The notes beneath the pieces were generated by a model. It was not told the DNA's origin. It did no database searches and saw nothing but the letters and a program-made list of their open reading frames with translations. A stretch of 64,000 nt of DNA from Anaerolineales bacterium (GTDB lineage Bacteria > Chloroflexota > Anaerolineae > Anaerolineales > Villigracilaceae), in assembly GCA_020847435.1 (NCBI GenBank), contig JADLBX010000032.1, forward strand, positions 1 to 64,000, given 5' to 3'. The position numbers were made by a program, and so were the translations under genes. Shown here piece by piece: positions 41,700 through 46,117 of this stretch (positions are counted from its first letter, which is position 1; each line of letters opens with the position of its first letter).

Positions 41700-43346
41700 C
41701 TAGTTATCTTTGCCTTGCTCTGCCATTTTGCGCGCAAGTGTCAAAGCTTGTTCGCGGGTGGAGATTTCACCGACAGCCTGACCCTCGCGGATGGCTTCGA
41801 GCAACCGACCGACGATTCGCCCCGACTCTAAATTGAGTTCCTTCATCAACTCGTGTCCGTCCAGCAGGCGCGGCGGGGCGACGGTTTCTTCGCGTTTCTC
41901 CCAGTAATTTTCAAGGAAGATGCTCGAAATTTTCAATGCCGAATCCCAGAGTTCAGCCGTCAGCGATTTGTCGCGGGTGCCGCGCAGGTCGGCGAGACCG
42001 AGCAGGACGAGATCCACGCCTGCTTCGCCCGCGTCGCGGAAAAAGCGGTAAATGGATTTACGCGTCGGCTCACGCTTTTTTTCGTTCAGTTGCGTCGTGA
42101 AAAAATGGAAACGCATGTGGTTGAAGACGATCTTCTTGATGCGTTGGATCTCGTCGTTGCTGAGGTTGAAGGCGTGCGCGCGCTTGGATGCGACCTGCGC
42201 GCCTTTCACGTCGTGGTCGAAAAAGCGGATGCGTCCAGTGTAGTCCACGGATTTGGTGGCGGGCTTCTCCACGTCGTGATACAACGTGGCAAAAAACAGC
42301 GCGGCGCGGACGGAGCGATCCGTGTTGAGGGATTCGACGAAATGGGCGGCGAACTTTTCGCGATACTTTCCAAGCGTGGCAATCAACGCGGCAAGGAAAG
42401 GATCGTCGCTTGATTCAGTTTCAAGCGCGGCAAGGATTCCCTCGAGATAGCCCAACACTTTCAACGTGTGTTCCCAAACGTCGAACACGTGCGGAGGAGA
42501 TTGCTCGCATCCCTTCATTGCAGTGAGTTCGGGCAGGAGATGAGGAAACACGCCGAGCATTTCCAGCGCGCGGACGGACGAGTCAGGTTTGGGACCCTCG
42601 AGGATTTTGAACAACTCGTCGCGTTGACGTTCGGGCGAGACGTTCGGCAACAGAGACGCGGCGTCTTTCATTGCGTTGCGCGTGGCGAGGTCAATTTTGA
42701 AATCGAACGCCGCGGCGAGGCGGACGCCGCGCAAAATGCGGATCGGGTCGTCGCTCAACGAGGTGGGTGAGCAGGCGCGGATGATTTTGGAGCGGATGTC
42801 GTCCGCGCCGTTGAGCGGATCAATGATCGAGCTTGTGCGGAGGTCGTACGCGATGGCGTTGATCGTGAAATCTCTCGCGCGCAAATCGTCTTCGAGTTTA
42901 TCGCCGCCGCGAAAGGTGGCGAAGTCGAGGAAGATGCGTGAGTTGTCCGCTTCGGTGACGATAACGCGTCCTGTGTCGCGTTGTTCGTCGAGGATCATGA
43001 AGTTGGCGTCGAGAGCGCGGGCAACGCGTCGGGCGAGGGAAATGCCGCCCGAAGGCGAGGCAAAATCAAAGTCGGGAGAGAAGCGGTTGAGGTACAAATC
43101 CCGCACTGCGCCGCCGACGAGGTAGATTTCCTGATTCGGCAGCGCGTCTCGGACTTTATCCAAAAGAGGCGGATGTGAAAATTGAAGCGGCATGTAAATG
43201 ATTTCGAGTTTTTCTTTGTGACGGCTGGTCTGCGCGGCGTGAAGCGCTTGCTCGGGCGTTCCTCCCTGTGCGACGATTTTTCCGCGAATGCGGGCAACCC
43301 AGCGACCAGCGTAAGCGGTTTGCGAATCGTCTTGCATGTGAATCAA
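41700..43346 (-). CDS. CCA tRNA nucleotidyltransferase / poly(A) polymerase-type protein with HD domain
   Basis: EIYLVGGAVRDLYLNRFSPDFDFA; DLRARDFTINAIAYDL; RILRGVRLAAAFDF; HDVEKPAT. Confidence 0.88.
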   Translation of the reverse strand: MIHMQDDSQTAYAGRWVARIRGKIVAQGGTPEQALHAAQTSRHKEKLEIIYMPLQFSHPPLLDKVRDALPNQEIYLVGGAVRDLYLNRFSPDFDFASPSGGISLARRVARALDANFMILDEQRDTGRVIVTEADNSRIFLDFATFRGGDKLEDDLRARDFTINAIAYDLRTSSIIDPLNGADDIRSKIIRACSPTSLSDDPIRILRGVRLAAAFDFKIDLATRNAMKDAASLLPNVSPERQRDELFKILEGPKPDSSVRALEMLGVFPHLLPELTAMKGCEQSPPHVFDVWEHTLKVLGYLEGILAALETESSDDPFLAALIATLGKYREKFAAHFVESLNTDRSVRAALFFATLYHDVEKPATKSVDYTGRIRFFDHDVKGAQVASKRAHAFNLSNDEIQRIKKIVFNHMRFHFFTTQLNEKKREPTRKSIYRFFRDAGEAGVDLVLLGLADLRGTRDKSLTAELWDSALKISSIFLENYWEKREETVAPPRLLDGHELMKELNLESGRIVGRLLEAIREGQAVGEISTREQALTLARKMAEQGKDN

Positions 43347-43897
43347 TCGTGCTTATATTTTTCCAGATCGACCACGCCGACGAAGGGGAGGTTGCGATAG
43401 TATTCGTCGAGGTCGAGACCGTAACCGAAGACGAATTTGTTTGGGATTTCGAAGCCGCGATAGTGGATGGGGACGACCGCCTCGCGTCGTTCGGGCTTGT
43501 CGAGCAGCGCGCAGACTTTGAGCGTGCGCGGCTGGCGGACTTGAAGCAACTCGAGCACCGAGGCGATGGTGTTGCCGCTGTCCACGATGTCTTCGACGAG
43601 CAGGACGTCTTTGTCGCGGATGTCCATTTGCAAGTCCATGGCGACGCGCACCGCGCCGCTTGACTCTCGTTTGCCCGCGCCATACGACGAGACCGCCATG
43701 AAATCCATCATGTGCGGCGCGGTGATGTTGCGGCTGAGGTCAACGAGGAACGGCACGCCGCCTCGTAAAATGCAAACGAGGAGCAAGTTGCCGTCGGGAT
43801 AGTCCGCGCTGATCTCCGCGCCGAGTTCAGCGATGCGAGATTGGAGTGATTCTGCGTTGATGAGAATTTCGGAAAGAATATCGTGATAATCTTGCAT
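43343..43897 (-). CDS. hpt: Hypoxanthine phosphoribosyltransferase
   Basis: LLVCILRGGVPFLVDL; VLLVEDIVDSGNTIASVL (PRPP motif); KFVFGYGLDLDEYYRNLPFVG. Confidence 0.95.
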   Translation of the reverse strand: MQDYHDILSEILINAESLQSRIAELGAEISADYPDGNLLLVCILRGGVPFLVDLSRNITAPHMMDFMAVSSYGAGKRESSGAVRVAMDLQMDIRDKDVLLVEDIVDSGNTIASVLELLQVRQPRTLKVCALLDKPERREAVVPIHYRGFEIPNKFVFGYGLDLDEYYRNLPFVGVVDLEKYKHD

Positions 43898-44077: not shown

Positions 44078-44647
44078 TCAACGCGGGACTTCGTGGTGCT
44101 CACGACACCGCGCTTCGTACATTTCCGCCGCGCCGACGATCACCACAGGATCATCAAATCTAGCAGGCTTCCCGTTGACAAGTCTCTGCGTGCGCGAGGC
44201 TTCTCCGCCGCAGACCATGCAAATGGCATGGAGTTTGTCCACTTCCTCGGCGATTGACATCAAAATCGGCATCGGACCGAATGGCTCGCCGCGGAAGTCC
44301 GTGTCCAAGCCTGCGGCAATGACGCGTATGCCGCGTGAGGCAAGTTCGCGCGAGACGGGGACAACCTCAGGGTCGAAGAACTGCGCCTCGTCAATGCCGA
44401 CGACGGTTGTGTCTTTGTCTATCTTGCTGAGAATCTCGGTCGCTTTTTCGATGGGGATGGCGTCGAAGTCCGAGCCCGCGTGCGACGTGACCTTTTCCAC
44501 CGCGTAGCGGATGTCAATGGCGGGTTTGAACACCTGCACCTTTTGCTTGGCAATCGTCGCACGGACGAGACGACGAATCAACTCATCCGTCTTGCCGCTA
44601 AACATCGAACCGCAAACTACTTCAATGGAACCGTGAGTGTGTTTCAT
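44078..44647 (-). CDS. tdk: Thymidine kinase
   Basis: [50 protein letters not shown]. Confidence 0.95.
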
Positions 44648-44862: not shown

Positions 44863-45330
44863 TTACGCCGCGGCTTCGGGGAGTTCGTAACCCAGCGAGC
44901 GGAGTTTCTTCTTCGCCGCCGTCAACGACGCCTGACCAAAACCAGCGACAGCCAATATCGCATCATTGCCGCCGTTCAACTTCTCAAGGAACTGACCGAC
45001 GTTCGTGATGCCAGCCGCTTTGAGCGCTTCGGTCGCGCGAGCCGCCAGACCGAGATCCTCGATCAGACGCTCAGGCGAACCTTTCAATTCCTCTTTCACC
45101 TTCTGCTGTTCCACATACGTCTGGCGGACAGACAACTTCTTATAGAAGCGATCCACCTGACCTTCGATGTCGAGCAGGCGTGAAGCCTCGCCCGTAAAGA
45201 ACGGATGGCAGCTTCCGCAAATGTCCACACGGAATTCTTTCTTTGTCGAACCCGTCGTCCACGTGCGGCCGCACGAAGCGCAAGTTACTTTTGCGTCGGG
45301 GAAATAAGTCGGATGAATATCGGGCTTCAT
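44863..45330 (-). CDS. rpmE: Ribosomal protein L31 with C-terminal RpoA-CTD-like helix-hairpin-helix extension
   Basis: L31 part MKPDIHPTYFPDAKVTCASCGRTWTTGSTKKEFRVDICGSCHPFFTG; C-terminal IEDLGLAARATEALKAAGITNVGQFLEKL...LAVAGFGQASLTAAKKKLRSLGYELP. Confidence 0.9.
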   Translation of the reverse strand: MKPDIHPTYFPDAKVTCASCGRTWTTGSTKKEFRVDICGSCHPFFTGEASRLLDIEGQVDRFYKKLSVRQTYVEQQKVKEELKGSPERLIEDLGLAARATEALKAAGITNVGQFLEKLNGGNDAILAVAGFGQASLTAAKKKLRSLGYELPEAAA

Positions 45331-45331
45331 G

Positions 45332-45592
45332 TTAAGCCTCCGCTTGCGCGACGATGTTCACGCGTTTCTGTCCACGGATCACGTCGTACATCACCACGCC
45401 GTCGGCGGTGGCGAACAATGTGTCGTCCTTGCCAGCCTTCACGTTCAGACCAGGTTTGATCTTCGTGCCGCGCTGGCGCACCAAAATATTTCCCGAAAGC
45501 ACAAACTGACCTGCGTAACGCTTCACGCCGAGTCGTTGTGAATTTGAATCTCGTCCGTTGCGGGTTGAGCCCGCGCCTGTTTTATGTGCCAT
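45332..45592 (-). CDS. rpmA: 50S ribosomal protein L27
   Basis: [48 protein letters not shown]. Confidence 0.97.
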
Positions 45593-45601
45593 GGTTACCT
45601 C

Positions 45602-46117
45602 TTACTTTTTCTTGGAATCCGACTTTTTGGATGAAGACTTGCTGGCGGACTCTTTCTTCGCGGGAGCCTTCTTTGCAGGTGACTTAGCCGCTTCTTTCTT
45701 GACTTTCGGCTGCTTCTCCGACTTCGGCTTCATCTCAGCCTCAGCGACCTCCACCTCAGCCGCCTTCTCGACCTTCGGCTCTTCCACCTTGCGTTTCTCG
45801 CCAGGCTTGCCGATGAAGTCCACCATCAACAACGTGTACTGCTGGCGGTGTCCGCCGCGCACGCGGATGCGTTTCTTCGGGCGATACTTGAAACGGTCAA
45901 TTTTCGGACCACGGATATGATCCATGACCGTGACCTTGACTTCGATGCCGCTGACGGTGGGGGTTCCGACCACGACCTCATCGCCGTCTGCCATGAGCAG
46001 GACGCGTTCAAGGTCGAATTTCTTGCCCGCTTCCACGGGCAGGCGATCCACTTCGATGGTTCGCCCTTCGACGGCGCGGAATTGCTTGCCGCCGCTTTCA
46101 ACGATTGCAAATCTCAT
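45602..46117 (-). CDS. rplU: 50S ribosomal protein L21 with Lys/Ala/Ser-rich tail
   Basis: MRFAIVESGGKQFRAVEG...YRPKKRIRVRGGHRQQYTLLMV; low-complexity basic C-terminus. Confidence 0.95.
   Translation of the reverse strand: MRFAIVESGGKQFRAVEGRTIEVDRLPVEAGKKFDLERVLLMADGDEVVVGTPTVSGIEVKVTVMDHIRGPKIDRFKYRPKKRIRVRGGHRQQYTLLMVDFIGKPGEKRKVEEPKVEKAAEVEVAEAEMKPKSEKQPKVKKEAAKSPAKKAPAKKESASKSSSKKSDSKKK

Follow-up and report, generated by a model that had tools for sequence, protein, structure and literature searches.

Closest described systems

Ribosomal protein L31 clamps the two halves of the ribosome together. The C-terminal part of bL31 lies on the head of the 30S subunit next to uS13, uS19 and uS14 and the helices h41/h42, where it follows the movements of the head, and subunit association depends on its last residues (PMC9966373, PMC7530986). 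The zinc-type protein (bL31A, encoded by rpmE) usually comprises about 70 amino acids. The C-terminal domain of the RNA polymerase alpha subunit (alpha-CTD, PF03118) has a five-helix fold, and its UP-element contact set is made up of R265, N268, N294 and K298 together with G296, S299 and E302. In the Escherichia coli domain, N294 inserts into the minor groove (PMC7822876). Small extra C-terminal domains are also found on NusA, namely AR1 and AR2, which have been described in E. coli and other gamma-proteobacteria.

Two NCBI annotation models are related to the modules discussed below. Positions 1316-1370 of PRK14906 (RpoC) match the alpha-CTD module found in the fusions of bL21 and bS16, so that an alpha-CTD-like stretch in beta' is already part of an annotation model, and the match of PRK12278 (L21) to the bL21 fusion ends where the module begins. 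Both models differ from the case reported here in that they concern host proteins other than bL31. A literature search, which covered few subscription papers, yielded no paper or annotation model on a bL31 with an alpha-CTD. The fusion of these two parts, each already known, is real, conserved and apparently undescribed.

The fused rpmE gene and its neighborhood

The window, i.e., the whole stretch of 64,000 nucleotides of an Anaerolineales contig (JADLBX010000032.1) that was analyzed, contains an rpmE open reading frame on the reverse strand (44863-45330) which starts with ATG and encodes 155 amino acids, compared to the about 70 of a usual bL31. Residues 1-66 (45133..45330, reverse strand) constitute a complete bL31, recognized by Pfam (PF01197, residues 1-65, E = 7.4e-24) and, in agreement, by NCBIfam (TIGR00105). 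The four cysteines read off the sequence (C17, C20, C38 and C41) form a zinc ribbon of the CxxC...CxxC type and, together with the L31 profile, place the protein among the zinc-type bL31 proteins. The first zinc knuckle (residues 14-22, 45265-45291) is CxxC in the genus of the window and CxC (CACG) across most other members of the order. Whereas other bL31 proteins end at this point or bear a short charged tail, the protein continues with a charged helical linker (residues 67-88; 45067..45132, reverse strand), delimited by alignment and an AlphaFold2 model, and with a folded alpha-CTD-like domain (residues 89-150; 44881..45066, reverse strand), delimited by PF03118, a PDB profile search, fold searches and about 100 homologs. 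The helices of this domain span residues 90-93, 97-105, 111-119, 122-126 and 133-145, and the reading frame closes with PEAAA and a TAA stop codon (44863..44880, reverse strand).

A further difference from the bL31 genes known so far is that the fused gene closes a tight rplU-rpmA-rpmE run as its third and last member, without a separate 5′ UTR. Directly upstream lies rpmA (bL27; 45332..45592, reverse strand; PF01016, 5.7e-34), whose TAA is separated from the rpmE ATG by 1 nt, and the Shine-Dalgarno sequence GGAGG of rpmE (45337..45341, reverse strand), 6 nt upstream of the ATG, is located within the final rpmA codons. The bL21 encoded by rplU (45602..46117, reverse strand; PF00829, 1e-29) carries no alpha-CTD module; it has a C-terminal tail of 70 residues that is rich in Lys, Ala and Glu and contains no recognized domain. 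On the other side follow a thymidine kinase (44078..44647, reverse strand; PF00265, 8e-55) and a phosphoribosyltransferase-like reading frame (43343-43897), the latter named by sequence inspection only. Separate translation of the tail, which the first-pass annotation had listed as a finding that would speak against a fusion, is unlikely, since the sole ATG in the reading frame is the start codon. No internal GTG or TTG with a Shine-Dalgarno sequence was found at codons 56-100 of the window gene, for which a separately translated tail was thus rejected; among the fused homologs, 6 of 104 possess an internal start preceded by a Shine-Dalgarno sequence.

Identity of the tail domain

The first-pass annotation had proposed that a zinc-type L31 continues here into an RpoA-CTD-like domain, and this is borne out by the presence of both Pfam domains in one reading frame. 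RNA_pol_A_CTD (PF03118) matches residues 83-144 with E = 3.4e-7 and 30.3 bits, the curated cut-off being 23.8 bits, and the tails of relatives reach up to 42 bits. An HMM built in this study from RpoA sequences only gave 54.9 bits for the tail and 6.3 bits for the best of 2000 residue-shuffled copies, which places the match far above chance. The suggested comparison with RpoA-CTD profiles had the same outcome: a profile built from 13 L31 tails matched RpoA throughout in a search of the PDB (50 distinct sequences at E<=0.01), with the alpha-CTD of Thermus (1doq, 5.1e-10) as best match. A generic HhH look-alike was ruled out on these grounds and by the fact that Pfam HHH_5 gave no match to the L31 tail.

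Structure prediction is in line with this assignment. Modeled alone with AlphaFold2, the domain adopts a five-helix fold (pLDDT 81.6, pTM 0.65), for which the best Foldseek matches are RpoA-CTD chains, with those of E. coli, Synechococcus, Thermus and Caulobacter among the top ones and TM values of about 0.7-0.9 to free alpha-CTDs; owing to the small size of the domain, the corresponding E-values reach no better than about 2e-3. Identification as an alpha-CTD is accordingly based mainly on sequence, and the evidence fully bears out the structural reading, according to which this ribosomal protein carries an HhH-type nucleic-acid-binding domain in its tail. The model of the whole protein consists of the L31 ribbon, a long helix (residues 55-81) and the alpha-CTD helices, its mean pLDDT of 75.5 and pTM of 0.39 making the relative placement of the domains unreliable. 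With the alpha-CTD of RNA polymerase the domain shares the sequence family, the fold and the positions R265, G296 and S299, but it lacks the alpha N-terminal domain and is joined to a ribosomal protein instead. A separate RpoA with its own alpha-CTD (70.9 bits) is encoded in the same genome, which rules out that the genomic RpoA-CTD was lost or replaced. These matches also carry a caution for genome annotation, as an alpha-CTD match need not mean RNA polymerase.

Origin of the domain

The distance between the positions G279 and G296 is 21 residues in all 56 Anaerolineae RpoA sequences and 18 in every one of 28 RpoA sequences from other Chloroflexota and 13 from other phyla. Among the L31 tails, 81 of 99 share the span of 21, and the others have 22-23. 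In a tree of 113 rows, which is based on just 78 columns and has several long branches, the Anaerolineae modules cluster within the Chloroflexota RpoA (support 99/97). All non-RpoA members, that is the L31 tails and the modules of NusA, bS16, bL21, RpoC, the kinase and the XRE-type protein introduced below, form one group (100/98), and 32 of 33 L31 tails fall into a single clade (97/98). A long-branched outgroup RpoA (L225) also lands in the non-RpoA group, probably as a misplacement. Given the 78 columns of the tree, the 3-residue insertion is the firmer evidence, and both together point to an origin in the Anaerolineae RpoA lineage; as far as can be judged from the sequences, the L31 domain arose as a duplicate of the alpha-CTD from an RNA polymerase of Anaerolineae. 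The data do not support a recent, straightforward copying of today's RpoA-CTD: the identity to the RpoA-CTD of the own genome is only 34%, and the tail groups with NusA-type modules. The position of N294 is occupied by glycine in 95 of 99 L31 tails and in two sets of NusA modules (27/29 and 7/10), whereas all 56 Anaerolineae RpoA sequences have asparagine. It is possible that the module reached L31 via NusA rather than directly from RpoA.

Distribution and selection

The fusion was present in all relatives checked in the survey of rpmE that had been suggested for related genomes. Within the own genus, family and order of the window, an L31 reading frame of at least 142 codons was found in 60 of 60 genomes, and each of the 30 that were read out encodes an alpha-CTD-like tail. 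An assembly or binning artefact was rejected, as the 60 relatives with the long frame include single-contig genomes (G012 and G025). Across the class, the alignment extends through the tail in approximately 32 of 150 genomes from about 12 families; in the remaining ones the protein stops after L31 or has a short charged tail. The matches listed by name belong to Anaerolineae, Anaerolineales and Anaerolineaceae, including Leptolinea and Pelolinea, and those listed also comprise a few Ardenticatenia MAGs. A survey of the phylum Chloroflexota found no L31-alpha-CTD fusion outside Anaerolineae.

Synonymous differences approach saturation in a comparison of seven close relatives, and non-synonymous differences per site amount to 0.07-0.23 in the alpha-CTD part compared to 0.06-0.14 in L31. 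The alpha-CTD-like domain is under purifying selection and is maintained. The locus is a clear example of how a domain of RNA polymerase was recruited onto a ribosomal protein and retained across a large bacterial group.

Nucleic-acid-facing residues and a putative rRNA-gripping arm

The expectation of an UP-element-type domain held for some of the contact residues only. In the window protein, R98 (R265), G132 (G296) and S135 (S299) are kept; N268, N294, K298 and E302 are replaced by E101, G130, A134 and A138, respectively, so the protein does not possess the UP-element contact set and the case for DNA binding of this type is weakened. Among 99 L31 tails, R265 is retained in 91, N268 in 16, N294 in 3 and K298 in 72, the own clade of the window being further changed in that both K298 and E302 are alanine. 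L31 tails thus differ from the alpha-CTD of RNA polymerase by the loss of N268 and N294, by a variable K298 and, additionally, by a strongly basic last helix. Basic residues were gained at K304 (96/99), K305 (88/99) and R308 (92/99), and the net charge of the last helix is +4.4 in L31 tails compared to +0.1 in RpoA and −0.7 in NusA modules of the same order. The charge of helix 1 falls from +3.0 to +0.7 in L31 tails and the domain taken as a whole has almost no net charge (+0.4), which would leave RNA binding to one face. The residue pattern as a whole fits a switch from promoter DNA to another ligand, probably RNA, and the loss of N268 and N294 combined with the gain of the basic helix favors a grip on rRNA over a role at promoter DNA or in coupling to transcription.

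On this basis, we give about even odds (a probability of roughly 0.5) to the reading that the tail of L31 extends the intersubunit bridge B1 at the head of the 30S subunit by gripping rRNA. By analogy with other bacteria, the C-terminus of bL31 would be located on the 30S head at uS13, uS19 and uS14 and the 16S helices 41/42, and the linker would keep the alpha-CTD-like domain there. The domain, which would no longer act as a reader of promoter DNA, might then grip 16S rRNA via the retained arginine of the R265 type and the last helix, which has become basic (KKxLR). As an added RNA-binding arm, it might strengthen or limit the bridge B1b/B1c while the subunits associate and the head rotates. 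The universal presence of the fusion in the own order, the low non-synonymous change, the kept R265 and the basic last helix lend it support. Against it stands that the window protein itself lacks K298 and E302, and R265 might just as well be conserved for contact with a protein. The fusion offers a testable system for the effect of extra domains on intersubunit bridging.

The retained R265 and the descent of the domain from a DNA-binding one would also suit a regulator, i.e., a free bL31 which, off the ribosome, binds its own mRNA, the rplU-rpmA-rpmE promoter or other DNA. In gamma-proteobacteria, bL31 is an autogenous translational repressor; the repressing part of the E. coli protein is, however, its N-terminal segment (PMC10931766). 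As N268 and N294 are lost, along with K298 and E302 in the window, and as rpmE comes last in its run and has no 5′ UTR of its own, such a function appears improbable.

Related modules across the class

Paralogous PF03118-type modules occur in the class on NusA, bS16 and bL21, inside beta', in a kinase, in an XRE-type protein and in multi-repeat proteins. Nearly all Anaerolineae NusA proteins read out have a C-terminal alpha-CTD-like module (L259, L261, L272-L279 and L280-L309 from class and order), one of them with two such modules in tandem (L274). In the order of the window, the NusA modules are strongly acidic and divergent. In the genome to which the window belongs, the assembly of which is incomplete, no NusA was found. 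The modules resemble AR1 and AR2 as small extra domains at the same place of NusA, yet differ from them by scoring as alpha-CTD (PF03118) and by arising from the RpoA lineage of the class itself.

The related module on NusA makes the main rival explanation, a coupling of transcription and translation, less arbitrary. Here the L31 domain would dock on NusA, NusG or RNA polymerase and so tie the polymerase to the leading ribosome, or it would compete with the polymerase's own alpha-CTD for NusA. In E. coli, the alpha-CTD binds the NusA N-terminal domain and AR2 (PMC7171158), and NusA is able to link RNA polymerase and ribosome (PMC12297416). The Anaerolineae NusA module and the L31 tail belong to one sub-family, in the clade apart from RpoA (100/98), and the RpoC insertion is a member of this non-RpoA group as well. 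These points have to be weighed against the position of the bL31 C-terminus by uS13, uS14 and uS19 in known ribosomes, against the related modules at other ribosomal sites, namely those of bS16 and bL21, and against the literature search, in which no paper linking bL31 to coupling was found among the sources covered (few subscription papers). The L31-specific basic shift suits RNA, although it is compatible with binding to the acidic NusA module. Both variants of the coupling explanation are consequently regarded as possible but rather unlikely.

For the rRNA-gripping extension of bridge B1, the fusions of other ribosomal proteins are of importance. At least eight genomes from several families of the class encode a bS16 with a C-terminal alpha-CTD-like module (L263, L264, L312-L314, L317, L321 and L322); L31 was read in six genomes with a bS16 fusion and lacks the module in every one. 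One bL21 (L262 in genome G064) carries a C-terminal module as well (PF03118, 6.5e-14), and this genome also contains a bS16 fusion. The positions of bS16 and bL21 on the ribosome differ from that of bL31, and the location at the bridge may therefore not be the decisive feature. In beta', an alpha-CTD-like insertion is located at about residues 722-816 of the two RpoC sequences read (L270 and L271), and RpoC reading frames of 1477-1560 amino acids with an alpha-CTD-like hit were found in around ten genomes of the class among the matches listed. It is conceivable, albeit doubtful, that the modules on NusA, bL31, bS16, bL21 and beta' form a class-wide docking code linking RNA polymerase, NusA and ribosomes. 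Lineages would then place the ribosomal module differently, on bL31 in some and on bS16 or bL21 in others, an arrangement we consider just as doubtful. The relatives on NusA and ribosomal proteins offer a way of testing whether domain-based transcription-translation links beyond NusG and NusA exist in bacteria.

Modules in a deoxynucleoside kinase, RpoC, XRE-type and multi-repeat proteins could, on the other hand, reflect an easily spreading domain, with mobile alpha-CTD-type modules being fixed as neutral or stabilizing caps that have no specific partner. This seems quite improbable for L31, where retention throughout the order, low non-synonymous change and the L31-specific conserved K/K/R argue for a specific function. 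In the kinase (L266), the PF03118 domain lies in the middle, between two stretches matching dNK (PF01712), which possibly represents a mobile module or a MAG oddity. Contamination of MAGs could explain single odd cases of this kind, but not the recurrent ones. The XRE-type protein (L265) carries an alpha-CTD-type module, and four large proteins (L258, L267, L268 and L269) start with two or three alpha-CTD-like repeats, the first of them also containing a stretch that resembles sigma region 4.
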